A stretch of 43,845 nucleotides of DNA from positions 1-43,845 of the forward strand of contig JAAUTZ010000021.1 of the NCBI GenBank assembly GCA_012031225.1, given 5' to 3'. The stretch's first letter is position 1. Each line of letters opens with the position of its first letter. Below, in pieces: positions 26,023 to 32,942 of the stretch. The notes under the pieces were generated by a model. The model saw nothing but the letters and a program-made list of their open reading frames with translations. It did no database searches and was not told where the DNA came from. Source of the DNA: Chloroflexaceae bacterium (GTDB taxonomy: Bacteria; Chloroflexota; Chloroflexia; Chloroflexales; Chloroflexaceae). The position numbers were made by a program, and so were the translations under genes.

Positions 26023-26051
26023 TTGACAGTTGCCCCATCCTCTACTATACT
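26023..26051 (+). promoter_or_regulatory. Near-consensus promoter of the BMP-type ABC operon
   Basis: TTGACA (26023-26028), a 17-base spacer and TATACT (26046-26051) form the best sigma-70-type promoter in the window. It predicts transcription from about 26058 and a leader of about 214 bases before the ATG at 26272, long enough for a regulatory RNA. Confidence 0.75.
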
Positions 26052-26057
26052 TTTCGT

Positions 26058-26271
26058 TAACCTCACTTGCCTGAGACGAATGCAACACCCAACTCAAGAC
26101 GTGAGATCAATCCTCAAGCGGCAATGTAAGCCCGGTATGTGCCTGATCACAGGAACCACCCTGCGGTGTTTATGCTGTCCCGAAGCCTGCGTCGTGCCCT
26201 GCGGCAATAGTGGCCACGGTGATGCAGCCGGGTTATAGATTCGCGTTTTACCGATTTGAGGGAGAAACCAA
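26058..26271 (+). ncRNA. Candidate structured 5' leader of the BMP-type ABC operon
   Basis: By eye a closing stem pairs TAA(G)CCCGG (26127-26135) with CCGGGTTA (26228-26235). Inside it are a CCTG-atca-CAGG hairpin (26142-26153), CACC-ctgc-GGTG (26157-26168), TGCC-ctgc-GGCA (26195-26206) and the self-complementary GTGGCCAC (26210-26217). Two hairpins have the same stem and loop sizes and the same loop sequence. A further pairing, CTCAC (26062-26066) with GTGAG (26101-26105), lies upstream. It matches no riboswitch class I know. A regulatory role is inference; the internal stems are short and could be chance. Confidence 0.3.
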
Positions 26272-27507
26272 ATGCAACAGACCATGTTCCTGCGAGCGCA
26301 GCTGCTCGTTATGCTGCTATTACTTGGCAGCATCCTGCTCAGTGCGTGTGGCGGCTCTGCGCCCGAAGCCCCCGCCGCGCCCGAAGCCCCCGCCGCCGAT
26401 ACATCCACTGAACCGTTTGTGTTCGGGATGGTACTGGTAGGCCCGATCAACGACGGCGGCTGGAGCCAAGCCCATTATGAGGGCGCACTGTATGCCGAAG
26501 AGCGGCTGCCCGACAGCAAGTTCATCTACATTGATAAGGTCAATCCGGCCGACAAGCCGAATGTACAGGTGGAGCAGGTGGTAGATGAACTGGTGGATCA
26601 GGGCGCAAAGCTGATCATCACCAACTCGGATGATTTCAAGGATGGAACCCGCGAAGCCGCCAAAGCCCACCCCGACGTGATCTTCATTCACGCCTCTGGC
26701 GATGATGTCCTGACGGGGCTGGCTCCCGCCAATCTCGGCAACCTTATGGGCAAGATGGAGTATGGCAAAATGATCGCAGGCTGTGCCGCCGCACTCGCCA
26801 CCGAGTCGGGGCGCATCAGCTACCTTGGCCCACTGATTAACGACGAGACCCGCCGCCTTGTCAATTCCGCCTTTCTCGGCGCACGCCACTGCTGGACGGA
26901 ACTGCGCGGCAACGATCCCGCCGAGCTTTCCTTTGAGGTGACGTGGATCGGCTTCTGGTTCAACATTCCCGGCGTGACCCTTGACCCGACGCAGGTGGCC
27001 AATGACTTCATCAACTCTGGCACAGATGTGATCATCTCCGGCATTGACACCACCGAAGCCCTGATCGAAGCGAACAAAGCCACCCAAGCCGGCACGCCCA
27101 TCTTTGCCGTGCCCTACGACTTCGAGGGGGCCTGCGCCCAAGCCGAAGAGGTGTGTCTAGGGGTGCCCTACTTCCACTGGGGCCCGTCCTATCTGGAGAC
27201 GATCACGGCGGCTGAACGGGGTACGTGGGAGCCTTCGTGGCAGTGGCTCGATCCGGATTGGGACGACATCAACAATAAGGATACCAGCGCGATTGGCTTC
27301 ATCAAGGGCGCAGGCCTGAGCGATGAAATCGGGGCCCAGTTGGATGAGTTCATCGCTGGGCTTGCGGATGGCAGCATCAGCCTGTTCACGGGCCCGCTCA
27401 ATTTTCAAGATGGCACGGTCTTTCTTGCCGAAGGTGAAGTTGCCACCGATGAGCAGATCTGGTACATGCCGCAACTGCTCGAAGGGATTACCGGACGTAG
27501 CGAGTAA
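26272..27507 (+). CDS. BMP-family substrate-binding lipoprotein of an ABC importer
   Basis: The 411-residue protein has a lipoprotein signal (hydrophobic run, lipobox LLSAC with C26), an Ala/Pro/Glu-rich linker and a BmpA/PnrA-type binding domain (FGMVLVGPINDGGWSQAHYEG, then IITNSDD, IFIHASGDD, GKMEYGKMIAG, VISGIDTTEALIEA). It captures solute outside the membrane for the importer encoded just downstream. Characterised BMP proteins mostly bind nucleosides, so purine or pyrimidine nucleosides are the likeliest ligands, but the binding residues cannot be assigned with confidence. A GAGGGAG ribosome-binding site precedes the ATG. Confidence 0.92.
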   Translation: MQQTMFLRAQLLVMLLLLGSILLSACGGSAPEAPAAPEAPAADTSTEPFVFGMVLVGPINDGGWSQAHYEGALYAEERLPDSKFIYIDKVNPADKPNVQVEQVVDELVDQGAKLIITNSDDFKDGTREAAKAHPDVIFIHASGDDVLTGLAPANLGNLMGKMEYGKMIAGCAAALATESGRISYLGPLINDETRRLVNSAFLGARHCWTELRGNDPAELSFEVTWIGFWFNIPGVTLDPTQVANDFINSGTDVIISGIDTTEALIEANKATQAGTPIFAVPYDFEGACAQAEEVCLGVPYFHWGPSYLETITAAERGTWEPSWQWLDPDWDDINNKDTSAIGFIKGAGLSDEIGAQLDEFIAGLADGSISLFTGPLNFQDGTVFLAEGEVATDEQIWYMPQLLEGITGRSE

Positions 27508-27552: not shown

Positions 27553-27600
27553 CGCTTGCCGCTTGCCGCCACACCTAGCGCACCCACACGGTATCGCCTA

Positions 27601-29109
27601 ATGGATGTTCAGATCCGCAATTTGACGAAAACGTTTGGCAGCTTGCGAGCCAATGATGCGATTAGCCTGAGCTTTGCGGCGGGCAACATTCACGGCATTC
27701 TGGGCGAGAATGGGGCAGGCAAAAGCACCCTGATGAAGCTGCTCGCGGGCTTCCTCCAGCGTGACAGTGGCGAGGTGCTGCTCGATGGGCAACCCGCCAG
27801 CCTGCACAATCCGGCGGCATCGCTGGCGGCTGGGGTGGGTATGGTGCATCAAGACCCGATGGACGTGCCGGCCTTCAGTGCGCTTGAGAACTTCTTCTGC
27901 GCTAGCCCCCGCAGTGCCCTGCCGAGCCTTGCCGTCGCCCGCCAGCGTCTCACCCAGCTCAATCAGCAGTTCGGCTTCACCGTCGCACCCGATCAGCCGC
28001 TCGCCCGCCTGACCGTTGGGCAACGCCAGCAGCTCGAAATTATGCGCCTGCTCGCGTGTGGCGTGAAGGTGCTGATCCTCGATGAGCCAACCACCGGTAT
28101 TACCGCCGCCCAGAAAACGGCTCTGTTTGCCGCGCTACGCCGCCTCACGGCGCAAGGCGAGACGGTGCTGTTTGTCTCGCACAAGCTCGATGAAGTTGCG
28201 GATCTCTGCCAAACGGTGAGCATCCTCCGCAGCGGGCGGGTTGTTGGCGCACAGTTGCCGATGCCGCAGCCGCAAGCCGAACTGCTCAAGCTGATGTTTG
28301 GGCAAGCGGGCGCACCCGCCCCGCCGCGCCAAGCAGCCGCGCCGCCTGCCCCAGCGTCGGCAGTCCCCGTCTGGCAACTGCACCAGATCACGGTGCGCGA
28401 GGGTGCGCTGTCTGTGCCCAACCTGACGCTGAGCCTGCCGCGTGGCTGTGTGGTTGGCTTGTGCGGGCTGGATGGCAGTGGCCAGCAACTGTTGCTGCGC
28501 CTGCTCGCAGGCCGCTTGCACCCCGAACGTGGGCGGCTGCTCCTCCACGGCACGGATGTGACCCGCGCCCCGTACCGCGCATTTCGGGCGGCTGGCGTGG
28601 AGTATCTGCCGGCTGACCGGATGCACGATGGCGTGATCGGCGCGATGACCCTGACTGAGCATCTGCTCTTGACGAGTGAGCAGCACGGGCTAATCATCAA
28701 TCGTGCGGATGCCCGCACCCAAGCCGAAACTGCGATTGCCGCTTATAACATCAAAGCCACGCCCGATACGCCGCTTGTGTCGCTATCAGGGGGCAATCAG
28801 CAACGGGCGATGTTGGCTCTTTTGTCGGCGGAATGCACGGGGCTGCTGTTCGATCAGCCGACCCGCAGCCTCGATGTGGTCTCGGCGCGGGCGATCTGGC
28901 AACGCCTGCTACACCGCCGCGCAGCAGGCACAACGATTGTGTTTGCCTCGGCCGATTTCGATGAACTGCTCGCCTACAGCGATCTGCTACTGGTCTTCTT
29001 TGCGGGCCGCGTCTCGCGCCTGTTGCCGTGCCCCACGATGACCGCCGCTCGGCTGGCCGAGTTGATCGGTGGGGTGGGCTTTGCTGAGGTAGCCGCCCAT
29101 GGCGGATAA
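27601..29109 (+). CDS. ABC importer ATPase, two fused nucleotide-binding domains (RbsA/YufO type)
   Basis: The 502-residue protein contains two ATPase domains, as in sugar- and nucleoside-type importers. The first has Walker A GENGAGKST (35-43), signature LTVGQRQQ near 138 and Walker B LILDEPTTG. The second has a degenerate Walker A, GLDGSGQQ near 288 lacking the P-loop Lys, signature LSGGNQQRAM near 394 and Walker B LLFDQPTRSLD. This asymmetry is normal for the class. I start at the ATG at 27601 because the first domain begins at residue 3; the frame extends to a TTG at 27556 through GCTTGCC repeats. No Shine-Dalgarno is obvious. It overlaps the first permease gene by 11 bases. Confidence 0.93.
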   Translation: MDVQIRNLTKTFGSLRANDAISLSFAAGNIHGILGENGAGKSTLMKLLAGFLQRDSGEVLLDGQPASLHNPAASLAAGVGMVHQDPMDVPAFSALENFFCASPRSALPSLAVARQRLTQLNQQFGFTVAPDQPLARLTVGQRQQLEIMRLLACGVKVLILDEPTTGITAAQKTALFAALRRLTAQGETVLFVSHKLDEVADLCQTVSILRSGRVVGAQLPMPQPQAELLKLMFGQAGAPAPPRQAAAPPAPASAVPVWQLHQITVREGALSVPNLTLSLPRGCVVGLCGLDGSGQQLLLRLLAGRLHPERGRLLLHGTDVTRAPYRAFRAAGVEYLPADRMHDGVIGAMTLTEHLLLTSEQHGLIINRADARTQAETAIAAYNIKATPDTPLVSLSGGNQQRAMLALLSAECTGLLFDQPTRSLDVVSARAIWQRLLHRRAAGTTIVFASADFDELLAYSDLLLVFFAGRVSRLLPCPTMTAARLAELIGGVGFAEVAAHGG

Positions 29110-30184
29110 ACCAACCACCGAAGCCGTGCCCGAAGCCCTGCCCGCCCCAGCCGCCCTGCGTGCGCTCGCCCTGCCTGCCGCGCACCTGCTTACATCGGCG
29201 GGGATCATCATCGGCGGGACGCTGCTATTCACCACGCTCGTGTTGTTGGCATCGGGTACATCCCCGCTCGAAGCCTACCGCCTGATCCTGTCGGGTGCGT
29301 TTCGCAACCCGCGCACCATCGCTGATCTGATTATGCTGACCGCCCCGCTCCTGCTCTGTTCAGCAGGCTTAACGCTGACCTTCTCGGCTGGCCTGTACAA
29401 TCTTGGCATCGAGGGGCAGATCGTGATTGGCGCAGTGCTAGCGATGGTTCCCCTGCGGCTGCTGCCCGATCTGCCGCCGCCGATGCTGTGGCTGCTCGCC
29501 CTCAGTGCGGGGGCAATCGGCGGTATGCTGTGGGCGTTGCTGGTCGGCGTACTGCGCCTATCCACCAACGTCAATGAGATTTTCGCGGGCTTAGGCTTAA
29601 ACTTCATCGCCATCGGGATCACCCTGTATCTCGTCTTCGGGCCTTGGAAGCGGCCCGGCGTAGCCTCCATGTCAGGTACCGAACCGCTCCCTGAAGCTCT
29701 GTGGCTGCCCACGCTCGCAGGGATCCGGCTTGCGCCACTTGCGCCGATCATTGCCCTGATTGGCATGGGCGTAGTTTGGTTTGCGTTGACCCGCACGCAC
29801 TGGGGCTTGGAAATCCGCGCCGCCGGATTGAACCTTGCTGCCGCCGAACGGCTCGGTGTCCCCGCTCACGCCCGGCTGTTCCAATCGCTGGCGGGGTGTG
29901 GCGCACTGGCGGGGCTAGCCGGAGCCTTGCAGATCCTCGCTGTCTATCACGCCCTGATCCCCAACATTTCGAGCGGGATTGGCTTTCTCGCGTTGCTAGT
30001 AGTGCTGCTGGTGCGCTCCAATCCGGTCTGGGTGTTGCCCGTCGCAATCCTCTTTGCGAGCTTCTCGATTGGCAGTATCCAGCTCCCGTTGCAGCTTGGG
30101 ATAGATAGCAGCATCGCTGGCGTGTTGCAGGGCACGCTGGTACTCTTTGCCCTGATCGCGCAGGGCGTGCGTGGGCGCGGCTGA
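29099..30184 (+). CDS. BMP-type ABC importer permease, first subunit (NupP/YufP-like)
   Basis: The 361-residue membrane protein belongs to the BPD_transp_2 permeases. It has a cytoplasmic Ala/Pro-rich N-terminus, about eight to ten hydrophobic helices, the family segment SAGLYNLGIEGQIVIGA, and the coupling loop RAAGLNLAAAERLGVPAHA that contacts the ATPase. Its ATG lies 11 bases inside the ATPase gene, implying translational coupling. It pairs with the second permease downstream to form the channel. A heptamer-repeat tract starts just after its stop. Confidence 0.93.
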   Translation: MADKPTTEAVPEALPAPAALRALALPAAHLLTSAGIIIGGTLLFTTLVLLASGTSPLEAYRLILSGAFRNPRTIADLIMLTAPLLLCSAGLTLTFSAGLYNLGIEGQIVIGAVLAMVPLRLLPDLPPPMLWLLALSAGAIGGMLWALLVGVLRLSTNVNEIFAGLGLNFIAIGITLYLVFGPWKRPGVASMSGTEPLPEALWLPTLAGIRLAPLAPIIALIGMGVVWFALTRTHWGLEIRAAGLNLAAAERLGVPAHARLFQSLAGCGALAGLAGALQILAVYHALIPNISSGIGFLALLVVLLVRSNPVWVLPVAILFASFSIGSIQLPLQLGIDSSIAGVLQGTLVLFALIAQGVRGRG

Positions 30185-30250: not shown

Positions 30251-31243
30251 ATGGACACCCAGCAAATCCTGATTAACCTTGCTGCGATTCTCGCGGGAGC
30301 CGCACCGCTAATCTTTGCCACAATGGGCGAAACGATCACCGAGCGGGCGGGCGTGGTCAACCTCTCACTTGATGGCAAGATGCTGCTCTCTGCCATGACG
30401 GGCTTTGCCGTCGGGGTGCATACCCAGAATGTGCTGCTCGGCTTTGTGGCGGCGGCAGGCGTGGGCATGCTCGTGGCACTGGTGCTATGTTTTGTCAGTC
30501 TCGGTTTGCGCCTCTCGCAGACGGCGGTAGGCTTTGTGCTTGCGCTGCTCTGCACCGATCTGTCCTCGTTTCTGGGCAACTCCTACGTGCGTGTGCCGGG
30601 CGTAGCTGTGCCAGCGATGCCGATCCCCGTGCTGCAAGATCTACCGATCTTGGGGAAGATCTTGTTCCAACACGATCTGCTGATTTACGCGAGCTTCCTG
30701 CTGGTGCCGTTGGTGTGGTGGTTTCTGTTCCGCACCCGCGCCGGGCTGACGCTCCGAGCACTCGGCGAACGCCCAACCACCGCCTATGCGCGGGGTGTGC
30801 CGGTGTTGCCGTTGCAGCTGTTTTATGTGCTGCTGGGTGGGGCGTTGGTGGGCATTGCGGGGGCAGCCTACACGCTCGATCTGAAGCAGGGCTGGAGCTA
30901 CCGCCACATTGCAGGCACGGGCTGGATTGCTTTGGCGATTGTGATCTTTGGGGGCTGGAACCCGTGGCGCGTCGCTTTTGGCTGCTACCTGTTTGGCGCA
31001 TTGCAGATCTTTGCCACACGCTCGCAGAATCTGCTCCCGAACATCCCCACCCAGATTTTCCAAGTTGCGCCCTTTGCGCTGATGATCCTGATCCTCGTGC
31101 TGGTGAATGCGGGCAGCAACCCCACCCTGCAACGCTGGATCGAGCAACTGCCCGCGCCGCTCAGCAAGCCCGTGCAACAGGTGCTAGCGCGGCTGAATAC
31201 GGCTGCACCGGCCGCACTAGGGCAGCCCTTCCGCCGCCCGTGA
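30251..31243 (+). CDS. BMP-type ABC importer permease, second subunit (NupQ/YufQ-like)
   Basis: The 330-residue protein is the second BPD_transp_2 permease. It opens with a hydrophobic helix and the family motif ITERAGVVNLSLDGKMLLSA, has about eight to nine helices and a coupling loop, RALGERPTTAYARGVPV. AAGGA lies 6 bases upstream of the ATG. It is the last gene of the importer operon, in the order binding protein, ATPase, permease, permease that is standard for this family. Confidence 0.93.
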   Translation: MDTQQILINLAAILAGAAPLIFATMGETITERAGVVNLSLDGKMLLSAMTGFAVGVHTQNVLLGFVAAAGVGMLVALVLCFVSLGLRLSQTAVGFVLALLCTDLSSFLGNSYVRVPGVAVPAMPIPVLQDLPILGKILFQHDLLIYASFLLVPLVWWFLFRTRAGLTLRALGERPTTAYARGVPVLPLQLFYVLLGGALVGIAGAAYTLDLKQGWSYRHIAGTGWIALAIVIFGGWNPWRVAFGCYLFGALQIFATRSQNLLPNIPTQIFQVAPFALMILILVLVNAGSNPTLQRWIEQLPAPLSKPVQQVLARLNTAAPAALGQPFRRP

Positions 31244-31272: not shown

Positions 31273-31317
31273 ACCCATATTGTTTAGGCAATCCTCTCGA
31301 TGAAAGGAACGATGCGT

Positions 31318-32487
31318 ATGCACGACCTAGAACGCACTTCAGTTCTCCCAACCGATCCATCTGACACCGATCTCCTTGACTATGAACAGCAAGTTCTAGC
31401 TGATGTCGAACAGCGCAAAGACATCGAAGACCCGGCTGCGGATCAAGAACAACCCTTTACCTACGCCATCTCGAGCTATGGCGCAGATTATGATGTGCGT
31501 GGGTTGGTGCAACGTATTCGTGATGCAGACATCATTGTACCGGAGTTTCAGCGCAAGTATGTCTGGACCCAAGCGCGGGCTTCCCGCTTCATCGAATCGT
31601 TGCTGTTGGGTTTGCCAGTGCCCGGTATCTTTCTTGCGGTTGATCCCAAGACGCGCGAACTGCTCGTGATAGATGGCCAGCAACGCTTACGCAGCCTGCG
31701 CCATTTCTATGATGGGAAGTTCCCTAGAGGTGAAGGCACAGTCCCATTTATCCTAAAAGGCGAGCGCAACAAACCGCTCAACCCTGAATTCGAGGGTAAA
31801 GCCTACGCCGATCTCGAACCGCGTGATCGGCGAGACTTGGACAATGCGATTATCCATGCTACAGTAATCAAACAGGATAAGCCTGAAGAAGAGGACAGCA
31901 GTAGCATCTACTACATCTTTGAACGGCTCAATACGGGCGGTGTATCGCTTCAGCCACAGGAGATACGGGCAAGTATCTATCAGGGCAAGCTGCTCAGGCT
32001 CTTGCAAGACCTCAATACGTATACCAACTGGCGCAGTATATTTGGGCCGGTCAATCAACGGATGAAAGACCAAGAATTGATTCTGCGCTTCTTTGCGTTG
32101 TACTATAATGTGGAGCAATACGAAAAGCCGTTACTTACGTTTCTGAATAAGTATATGCGCGATAACCGCGAACTAGGGAAACAGTCAGAAACCGAGTTGG
32201 TGCGGGTTTTTACGAATACGATTGACACGGTGCATCGCTGCCTAGGCGAGCGGCCTTTTCGTCCAAAGGGGGCCATCAATGCGCCCGTCTACGATGCCGT
32301 GATGTACGGGATTGCGAAACGGCTGGAGCGCGGCAGCATCACCGATTGCGAGCAACTACAGGTTGCCTATGATACGCTGTTCAAAGATACCGATTTTGTG
32401 CGTTTCTACACGGCAGGCACAACTGATCCGGCAAATATTCGAGGCCGCTTGAGACTAGCAGCAGAAGCCTTTGCAGGTATCGCGTGA
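31318..32487 (+). CDS. DUF262 (GmrSD N-terminal, ParB-like NTPase) protein without an HNH domain
   Basis: The 389-residue protein is a DUF262 member: IIVPEFQRKYVW (about 73-83), LLLGLPVPGIFL, the hallmark DGQQR (119-123) and IFERLNTGGVSLQPQEIR. In GmrS and SspE-like proteins this domain hydrolyses nucleotides and gates a C-terminal nuclease. Here the usual DUF1524 HNH nuclease is absent and the protein ends in a helical region. I chose the ATG at 31318, with AAGGA 9 bases upstream, over ATGs at 31300 and 31312. It overlaps the HEPN gene as GTGA. The pair is markedly AT-richer (37-48% G+C in sampled lines versus 65% in the neighbouring gene), suggesting horizontal transfer. A defence or toxin-antitoxin role is inferred. 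Confidence 0.88.
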   Translation: MHDLERTSVLPTDPSDTDLLDYEQQVLADVEQRKDIEDPAADQEQPFTYAISSYGADYDVRGLVQRIRDADIIVPEFQRKYVWTQARASRFIESLLLGLPVPGIFLAVDPKTRELLVIDGQQRLRSLRHFYDGKFPRGEGTVPFILKGERNKPLNPEFEGKAYADLEPRDRRDLDNAIIHATVIKQDKPEEEDSSSIYYIFERLNTGGVSLQPQEIRASIYQGKLLRLLQDLNTYTNWRSIFGPVNQRMKDQELILRFFALYYNVEQYEKPLLTFLNKYMRDNRELGKQSETELVRVFTNTIDTVHRCLGERPFRPKGAINAPVYDAVMYGIAKRLERGSITDCEQLQVAYDTLFKDTDFVRFYTAGTTDPANIRGRLRLAAEAFAGIA

Positions 32488-32942
32488 GGGAACTGGAACG
32501 CCAACGCGACAAACTCGATGCACTCTTTAAGCGGGTAGAACGTCTCGACCACGACCCCGAACTTCAGGCCCATTTTGCGCGCTATCTCTGTGTGCTGGTA
32601 TCGGGCTACCTTGAAAATGCACTCGAAGAGATTTTTGGTGCGTATGCCGAGCAACAAGCATCCCGCCCAGTTGCAAATTATGTTAAACGTCAATTGGGCA
32701 ACATTCACAATCCAAACATGGATCGTATTCTCGATCTGAGTGGTGCGTTTAATGATACGTGGCGTGAAGAGCTTGAAACCACTATCTCCCCTGAAGTTAA
32801 GGCTGCGGTAAATAGTGTCGTCAATACCCGCAACCAGATTGCCCATGGTAAGCCAACCGGCATCTCGTATGTCACGATGCAAGCCTACTACCAGCGCATT
32901 AAGCAGCTCATCGAGATACTCCGCACGCAGTGTGGTGTCTAG
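32484..32942 (+). CDS. HEPN-domain protein, putative RNase toxin or effector
   Basis: The 152-residue all-helical protein carries the HEPN active-site motif R-N-x3-H as RNQIAHG (R116, N117, H121) near its C-terminus, with helices before and after as expected. It resembles the RiboL-PSP/MAE_28990 group of short HEPN proteins, many of which are metal-independent RNases in toxin-antitoxin or phage-defence modules. The start is GTG at 32484, inside the DUF262 stop (GTGA overlap), so the two products are made together. Composition is low-GC like its partner. No separate antitoxin gene is seen; the DUF262 protein may control it. The family assignment is firm, the function inferred. Confidence 0.85.
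   Translation: MRELERQRDKLDALFKRVERLDHDPELQAHFARYLCVLVSGYLENALEEIFGAYAEQQASRPVANYVKRQLGNIHNPNMDRILDLSGAFNDTWREELETTISPEVKAAVNSVVNTRNQIAHGKPTGISYVTMQAYYQRIKQLIEILRTQCGV

Follow-up and report, generated by a model that had tools for sequence, protein, structure and literature searches.

The transcript leader of the BMP-type importer operon of Chloroflexales is, on balance, probably an attenuator of a probable purine-base importer operon, which would be relieved by a REC-ANTAR protein; a switch read by a protein is the best reading of the data and fits better than a metabolite-sensing RNA. The leader found in the window, i.e., the whole 43,845-nucleotide stretch of DNA from a Chloroflexaceae bacterium analyzed here, appears from its sequence to belong, as a diverged copy, to a leader family which looks built as an ANTAR attenuator in the relatives. 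It is not itself filed as an ANTAR RNA, because its loop consists of seven bases and its U-tract is unclean.

The operon is preceded by the promoter TTGACA-17-TATACT at positions 26023 to 26051, scoring 11/12 against the consensus (the leader elements and the operon genes lie on the forward strand). The start deduced from this promoter gives a leader of approximately 214 nt, 26058 to 26271, which contains the ribosome-binding site GAGGGAG (26258 to 26264; the same in the sister genome) and is followed by the ATG at 26272. A near-consensus promoter giving a 214-base leader had been proposed in an earlier sequence-only reading and is borne out, promoter and spacing recurring in the relatives: 41 of 45 orthologous BMP loci have a promoter of at least 10/12, compared with 20/900 shuffled upstream regions, the exact TTGACA-17-TATACT is found at 33 of the 45, and the spacing from the -10 element to the ATG is 76 to 221 nt. 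BMP relatives were present in 49 of the 100 genomes searched, three of them distant with about 32% identity. The upstream set comprised one locus from each of 45 genomes, the three distant relatives and the G030 fragment being left out and the distant paralogs L048 and L049 being excluded. These 45 loci yielded 42 leaders after L013 and L018 (promoter below 10/12 to TTGACA/TATACT) and L029 (contig end) had been dropped; L042 and L043 were retained on TATACT alone. As a separate observation, a direct repeat TTAA-N7-TTAA with an 11-nt period is located just 3' of the promoter in 18 of the 42 leaders, from eight genera (L005, L017, L019-L023, L026, L027, L031, L032, L036-L039, L041, L045, and L047), starting 11 to 16 nt past the -10 element. 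The repeat, which we take to resemble Pho-box-like operators, may be bound, as DNA, by a second regulator.

The leader is followed by the genes for a BMP-type substrate-binding lipoprotein (26272 to 27507), an ABC transporter ATPase (27556 to 29109; PF00005), and two permeases (29099 to 30184 and 30251 to 31243; both PF02653), with ruvB as the divergent neighbour upstream of the operon. With a PF02608 score of 48.6 bits against a cut-off of 24.1, the lipoprotein is a member of the BMP/PnrA-type substrate-binding proteins. Its closest solved relatives are AtzT (6pi5; E 1.7e-24) and the Brucella BMP lipoprotein 3s99 (E 1.9e-24). According to PMC6834077, guanine was found in AtzT (KD 0.11 uM) and adenine was modelled in the 3s99 structure. 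Because these two are its best solved relatives, a purine base is the likely cargo of the importer. In an alignment read by eye, the guanine-pocket glutamate and a tryptophan of AtzT described in the same paper align with identical residues of the BMP protein, whereas the asparagines named there are apparently not kept. The sequence-only reading had guessed at a nucleoside ligand, which comes close as far as the cargo is concerned, the nearest relatives binding, or being modelled with, guanine and adenine; for a nucleoside-sensing riboswitch nothing specific speaks, and it is neither supported nor excluded. Directly behind the operon, a GmrSD_N-domain protein and a HEPN (RiboL-PSP) protein are encoded in tandem (31300 to 32942), which suggests a defence or toxin-antitoxin-like module. 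Among the BMP homologs of Anaerolineae (L093, L100, L102, L127, L129, and others), a strong AAAGGAGGTG-like stretch occurs well upstream of the start, separate from the gene's own ribosome-binding site, and is perhaps another leader type.

The features conserved by the relatives' leaders are best seen in alignment A1, which contains 27 leaders from eight Chloroflexaceae genera, with the window and its sister held out. The underlying selection pattern (a purine and a G in the first and fourth positions of the loop, GC/GC flanking it, and a restricted choice of letters at the pair after that) fits 28 of the 42 leaders, among them the held-out sister leader L004; invariance of the pattern-selected columns proves nothing, and the pattern did not touch P2, the terminator hairpin, or the outermost pair of P1. 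Three covarying helices are present, namely P1 with 4 pairs (88.9% of cells paired), P2 with 5 pairs (85.3%), and a hairpin of 13 pairs (82.5%). The covariation of 0.431 compares with 0.226 (sd 0.015) for shuffled alignments and was reached by 0/500 shuffles, slid strands giving at most 0.293. On both sides, 15 of the 22 pairs have changed; further pair types are not above the shuffles (37 vs 34.8; 105/500). P2 is not a second hexaloop, since its pair (28,33) covaries and closes the loop to four bases. Behind the 13-pair hairpin comes U-rich sequence, with the ribosome-binding site next, in the manner of an intrinsic terminator, and the strands of this hairpin fit far better within a species, cross-species pairings being as good in 9/553 cases. 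RNAalifold alone recovers P1 and the terminator hairpin and does not recover P2. Two long-range helices which, in our own impression, had looked convincing by eye in several species were rejected: both the helix a:b, formed by the P1 strand with the stretch before the terminator, and the antiterminator helix b:c form about equally well when strands of different species are paired (231/601 and 256/492, resp.). A separate feature of the 27 leaders is a near-invariant CAGAT some 20 nt 5' of the start codon. It falls in the interval from the terminator-like hairpin to the ribosome-binding site, and no pairing partner was found for it; its equivalent in the window is CGAT at 26252 to 26255.

The covariance model R1, run over 82 genomes with stricter filters and with 37 candidates per genome scored, gave 28 strong matches (E at most 9.4e-19), of which 27 are the model's own source sequences and match by construction. 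The new one is in G030, where the contig ends soon after the leader and the gene behind it is unconfirmed. Strong sites occur once per genome, all at the BMP operon wherever the gene is checkable; no convincing second site per genome was found, nine of the many weaker matches being read and judged by eye as coding or unrelated. R1 scores L005, L006, and L044 only weakly (E 0.086 to 1.5) and gives no match to six leaders supplied from genus g21 (L024, L025, L028, L030, L034, and L040). Another short leader, with a strong hairpin and a U-run, was noticed in two related genomes (L190, L191) before a gene that presumably resembles that of ribosomal protein bL25.

The most telling feature shared by these otherwise very different leaders is a small loop. 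PMC3369931 and PMC8934654 describe ANTAR target RNAs with six-base loops that conserve A at position 1 and G at position 4; in the crystal, G4 made the sole contact specific to a base, and one hexaloop was the minimal site. P1 of the core group has a six-base loop with A or G at position 1. Counted per genus in all 42 leaders, i.e., without hexaloop selection, although the idea of the hexaloop itself came from viewing some of the leaders, A1/G4 hexaloop hairpins are found in 10.0 of 16 genera as against 1.71 (sd 0.94) after shuffling, which 0/300 shuffles reach. With a C-G closing pair the values are 7.67 vs 0.57 (sd 0.54) genera, again reached by 0/300 shuffles, and outside the core group 7.0 of 8 genera vs 0.30. 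When 1280 loop features (length, positions, letters) were scanned in the 42 leaders, the six-base A1/G4 loop came first with a z of 8.2, the shuffle maximum being 5.17. No A1/G4 excess is seen in the sequence preceding the promoter, within the gene, or ahead of 46 BMP genes from outside Chloroflexales; the antisense strand has a small one (2.00 vs 0.67; 14/300), and C1/G4 loops are likewise in excess (6.17 vs 2.34; 0/300).

The position of the loop varies. In the 27 core-group leaders it stands apart from the terminator, at some distance 5' of it. In L005 and L006, and by eye also in L044, it belongs to the terminator hairpin itself, on the 5' arm, which is the canonical ANTAR layout. The six leaders of g21 have four different loops, in which only A1 and G4 are kept. 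Most leaders have one loop; tandem loops were noted by eye in L042, L043, L020, and L038, with stems from three pairs upwards. The core loop hairpin of L046, AGCAACGCAGCUU, agrees in 12 of 13 letters with the eut consensus AGCAANGRRGCUY as given in PMC3369931. A combined promoter-plus-hexaloop pattern was also run over 81 genomes, with a backwards control that is not a promoter, so that an excess over it means little; of eight loci read among the matches listed, one is a BMP leader and the other seven looked unrelated.

A protein suited to read such a loop would be at hand. PF03861 was detected in 61/61 genomes searched, the window's own included, and in 0/14 controls; being in every genome searched, the gene is useless as a discriminator. 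ANTAR genes are present also in genomes without a detected BMP gene and must therefore do other work too. The genome of the window encodes two ANTAR proteins, both REC-ANTAR according to Pfam. One of them, L134, has counterparts with 76-100% identity in 8 of the 10 other genomes with a fetched ANTAR region; in G015 and G034 the single fetched region held another paralog. In the g21 genomes G043 and G062 the L134 counterpart is the only ANTAR gene found. Judged from these comparisons, L134 would be the natural candidate regulator.

In the relatives, RNA polymerase would start at the strong promoter and transcribe the 5' part of the leader with the small hexaloop hairpin. It would then meet the intrinsic-terminator-like hairpin ahead of the ribosome-binding site. 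Binding of an activated REC-ANTAR response regulator to the hexaloop would allow the polymerase to pass. We infer ANTAR binding, termination at the hairpin, the signal, and the cargo.

The leader of the window and its sister is real and under purifying selection in their genus, because the leaders have few differences while fourfold sites of the BMP gene agree at only 135 of 195 positions. Between 26020, just 5' of the -35 element, and the ATG there are 22 differences in 255 columns, or 21 in 205 for the leader alone, and in the 20 columns just before 26020 there are 11. The sequence-only description as a structured regulatory leader therefore stands, supported by this selection and by the covarying helices and terminator-like end hairpin of 27 relatives. 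Within the window, the counterpart of the relatives' hexaloop hairpin in alignment A2 is GGC-AATGTAA-GCC at 26120 to 26132, with a seven-base loop and three pairs; the sister has GGC-AATGTA-GCC, a six-base loop with three pairs, scoring 2.3 bits for P1 of R1. No six-base A1/G4 loop hairpin was found in the window leader (L003). A possible but weak counterpart of P2 is GGTATGTGCC at 26134 to 26143 (-1.7 bits to P2 of R1). The relatives' terminator place is occupied by the hairpin CCCG..CTGCGTC / GATGCAG..CGGG (26179 to 26232), a homology by position only; its stem bases are the same in the sister, and it is present in the consensus fold of 26175 to 26249. No clean U-tract follows it, and the window has no clear terminator. 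R1 finds neither of the two leaders (best 3.6 and 3.9 bits for window and sister, resp.), and their link to the family is built on the orthologous gene, the promoter, the leader position, and a shared CAAGCGGC stretch. The window leader would descend from the relatives' arrangement but have drifted, and control in this genome is extrapolated from the relatives and could act on translation instead.

For the window, a 109-nt domain closed by an 8-bp stem had been proposed. The closing stem, TAA(G)CCCGG (26127 to 26135) with CCGGGTTA (26228 to 26235), and both CTGC-loop hairpins, CACC-CTGC-GGTG (26157 to 26168) and TGCC-CTGC-GGCA (26195 to 26206), are indeed present in the sequence. The consensus fold of window and sister retains the closing stem, the CTGATCACAG hairpin, the first CTGC hairpin, which is the same in the sister, and CTGCGTC/GATGCAG. 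It does not retain the second CTGC hairpin, in which a change of T to G at 26195 undoes the outermost pair in the sister. The stability of the domain is not above chance (MFE -63.8; shuffles average -61.6 with sd 4.47, giving z -0.49; 62/200 shuffles as stable or more), nor is it shared by the relatives: the covariation-aware alignment did bring out covarying helices in the 27 relatives, which form a structure different from this domain. By sequence comparison, the 109-nt structure is not the part conserved by the relatives, and two sequences are too few to prove its fold.

These data bear on a rather unlikely alternative, according to which attenuation has been lost in the window's genus and the 109-nt domain together with the ribosome-binding-site stretch controls translation or mRNA stability. 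Such control is consistent with the conservation of the entire leader between window and sister, with the overlap of the closing-stem 5' strand and the hairpin 26120 to 26132, which makes the closing stem and the hexaloop remnant mutually exclusive, with the unclean U-tract, and with the pairing, in the MFE structure, of the ribosome-binding-site region with 26112 to 26122. It is weakened by a fold no more stable than shuffled sequences, by the small sample of two sequences, and by the ribosome-binding-site pairing itself, which, read by eye, gains one pair and loses one in the sister.

Unlikely is also a metabolite riboswitch, in which P1, P2, and about 40 nt thereafter, acting as the aptamer, would bind a purine base or a compound related to it and set the terminator directly. 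The covarying structure in A1, the occurrence of a single strong R1 site per genome at the BMP operon, and the probable cargo would all suit such an RNA, as would the missing Rfam match. That no recognised riboswitch class applies, as stated in the sequence-only reading, agrees with the search of RNA family models: gathering and E-value searches of Rfam were empty for the window and, across 20 loci taken from relatives, yielded a tRNA alone; a freshwater-2 match to the window at E 3.4 was read as chance. Purine-sensing riboswitches such as the NMT1 motif (xanthine, urate; PMC7373994) would likewise precede purine-related transport genes, but no Rfam family matches the window or the 20 loci. 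A ligand pocket leaves unexplained why the top shared feature is an A1/G4 hexaloop, and the long-range helices expected for a closed aptamer are unsupported. Leader-peptide attenuation is highly improbable and was rejected, for the cysteine-rich frame of 52 codons noticed by eye (26080 to 26238, ATG at 26080) is probably a chance frame because the sister has ACG for its ATG and a one-base deletion within it, and 0/42 leaders have an upstream frame that is 6 codons or longer and preceded by a ribosome-binding site sharing at least 5/6 letters with AGGAGG.

If relief of attenuation by a REC-ANTAR protein holds, a probable purine-base importer of Chloroflexota would be under ANTAR control, with one conserved regulator protein and one loop named as candidates. 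No link of ANTAR proteins to such an importer or to Chloroflexota leaders was found in the open-licence literature among the matches listed, absence from print being unproven thereby. Only tentatively can it be put forward that REC-ANTAR control of purine-base uptake by antitermination is Chloroflexales-wide and exerted by a conserved regulator, that it relies on a new leader architecture whose one hexaloop, bearing a purine in its first position, works from afar on a terminator of its own, and that the window's genus has rebuilt its leader into the 109-nt domain. The leaders would then constitute a natural series from a loop inside the terminator (L005, L006, and, by eye, L044) via the distant hexaloop of the core group to the rebuilt leader of the window's genus, which lets one ask how much of the ANTAR motif is needed.

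Compared with the known ANTAR-target leaders, i.e., eut of Enterococcus faecalis with EutV, nasF of Klebsiella with NasR, and amiE of Pseudomonas with AmiR, the relatives' leaders share a small hairpin with the A1/G4 hexaloop (R1/G4 for the core group), which precedes a terminator-like hairpin or forms part of it, and REC-ANTAR genes are present in the same genomes. They differ in that a single hexaloop usually stands where the known leaders have two joined by a short linker, in the position of the core-group hexaloop well upstream of the terminator, and, in the window, in a loop of seven bases. The operon served here encodes a BMP importer, and binding of an ANTAR protein to its leader is deduced from the likeness to these systems.
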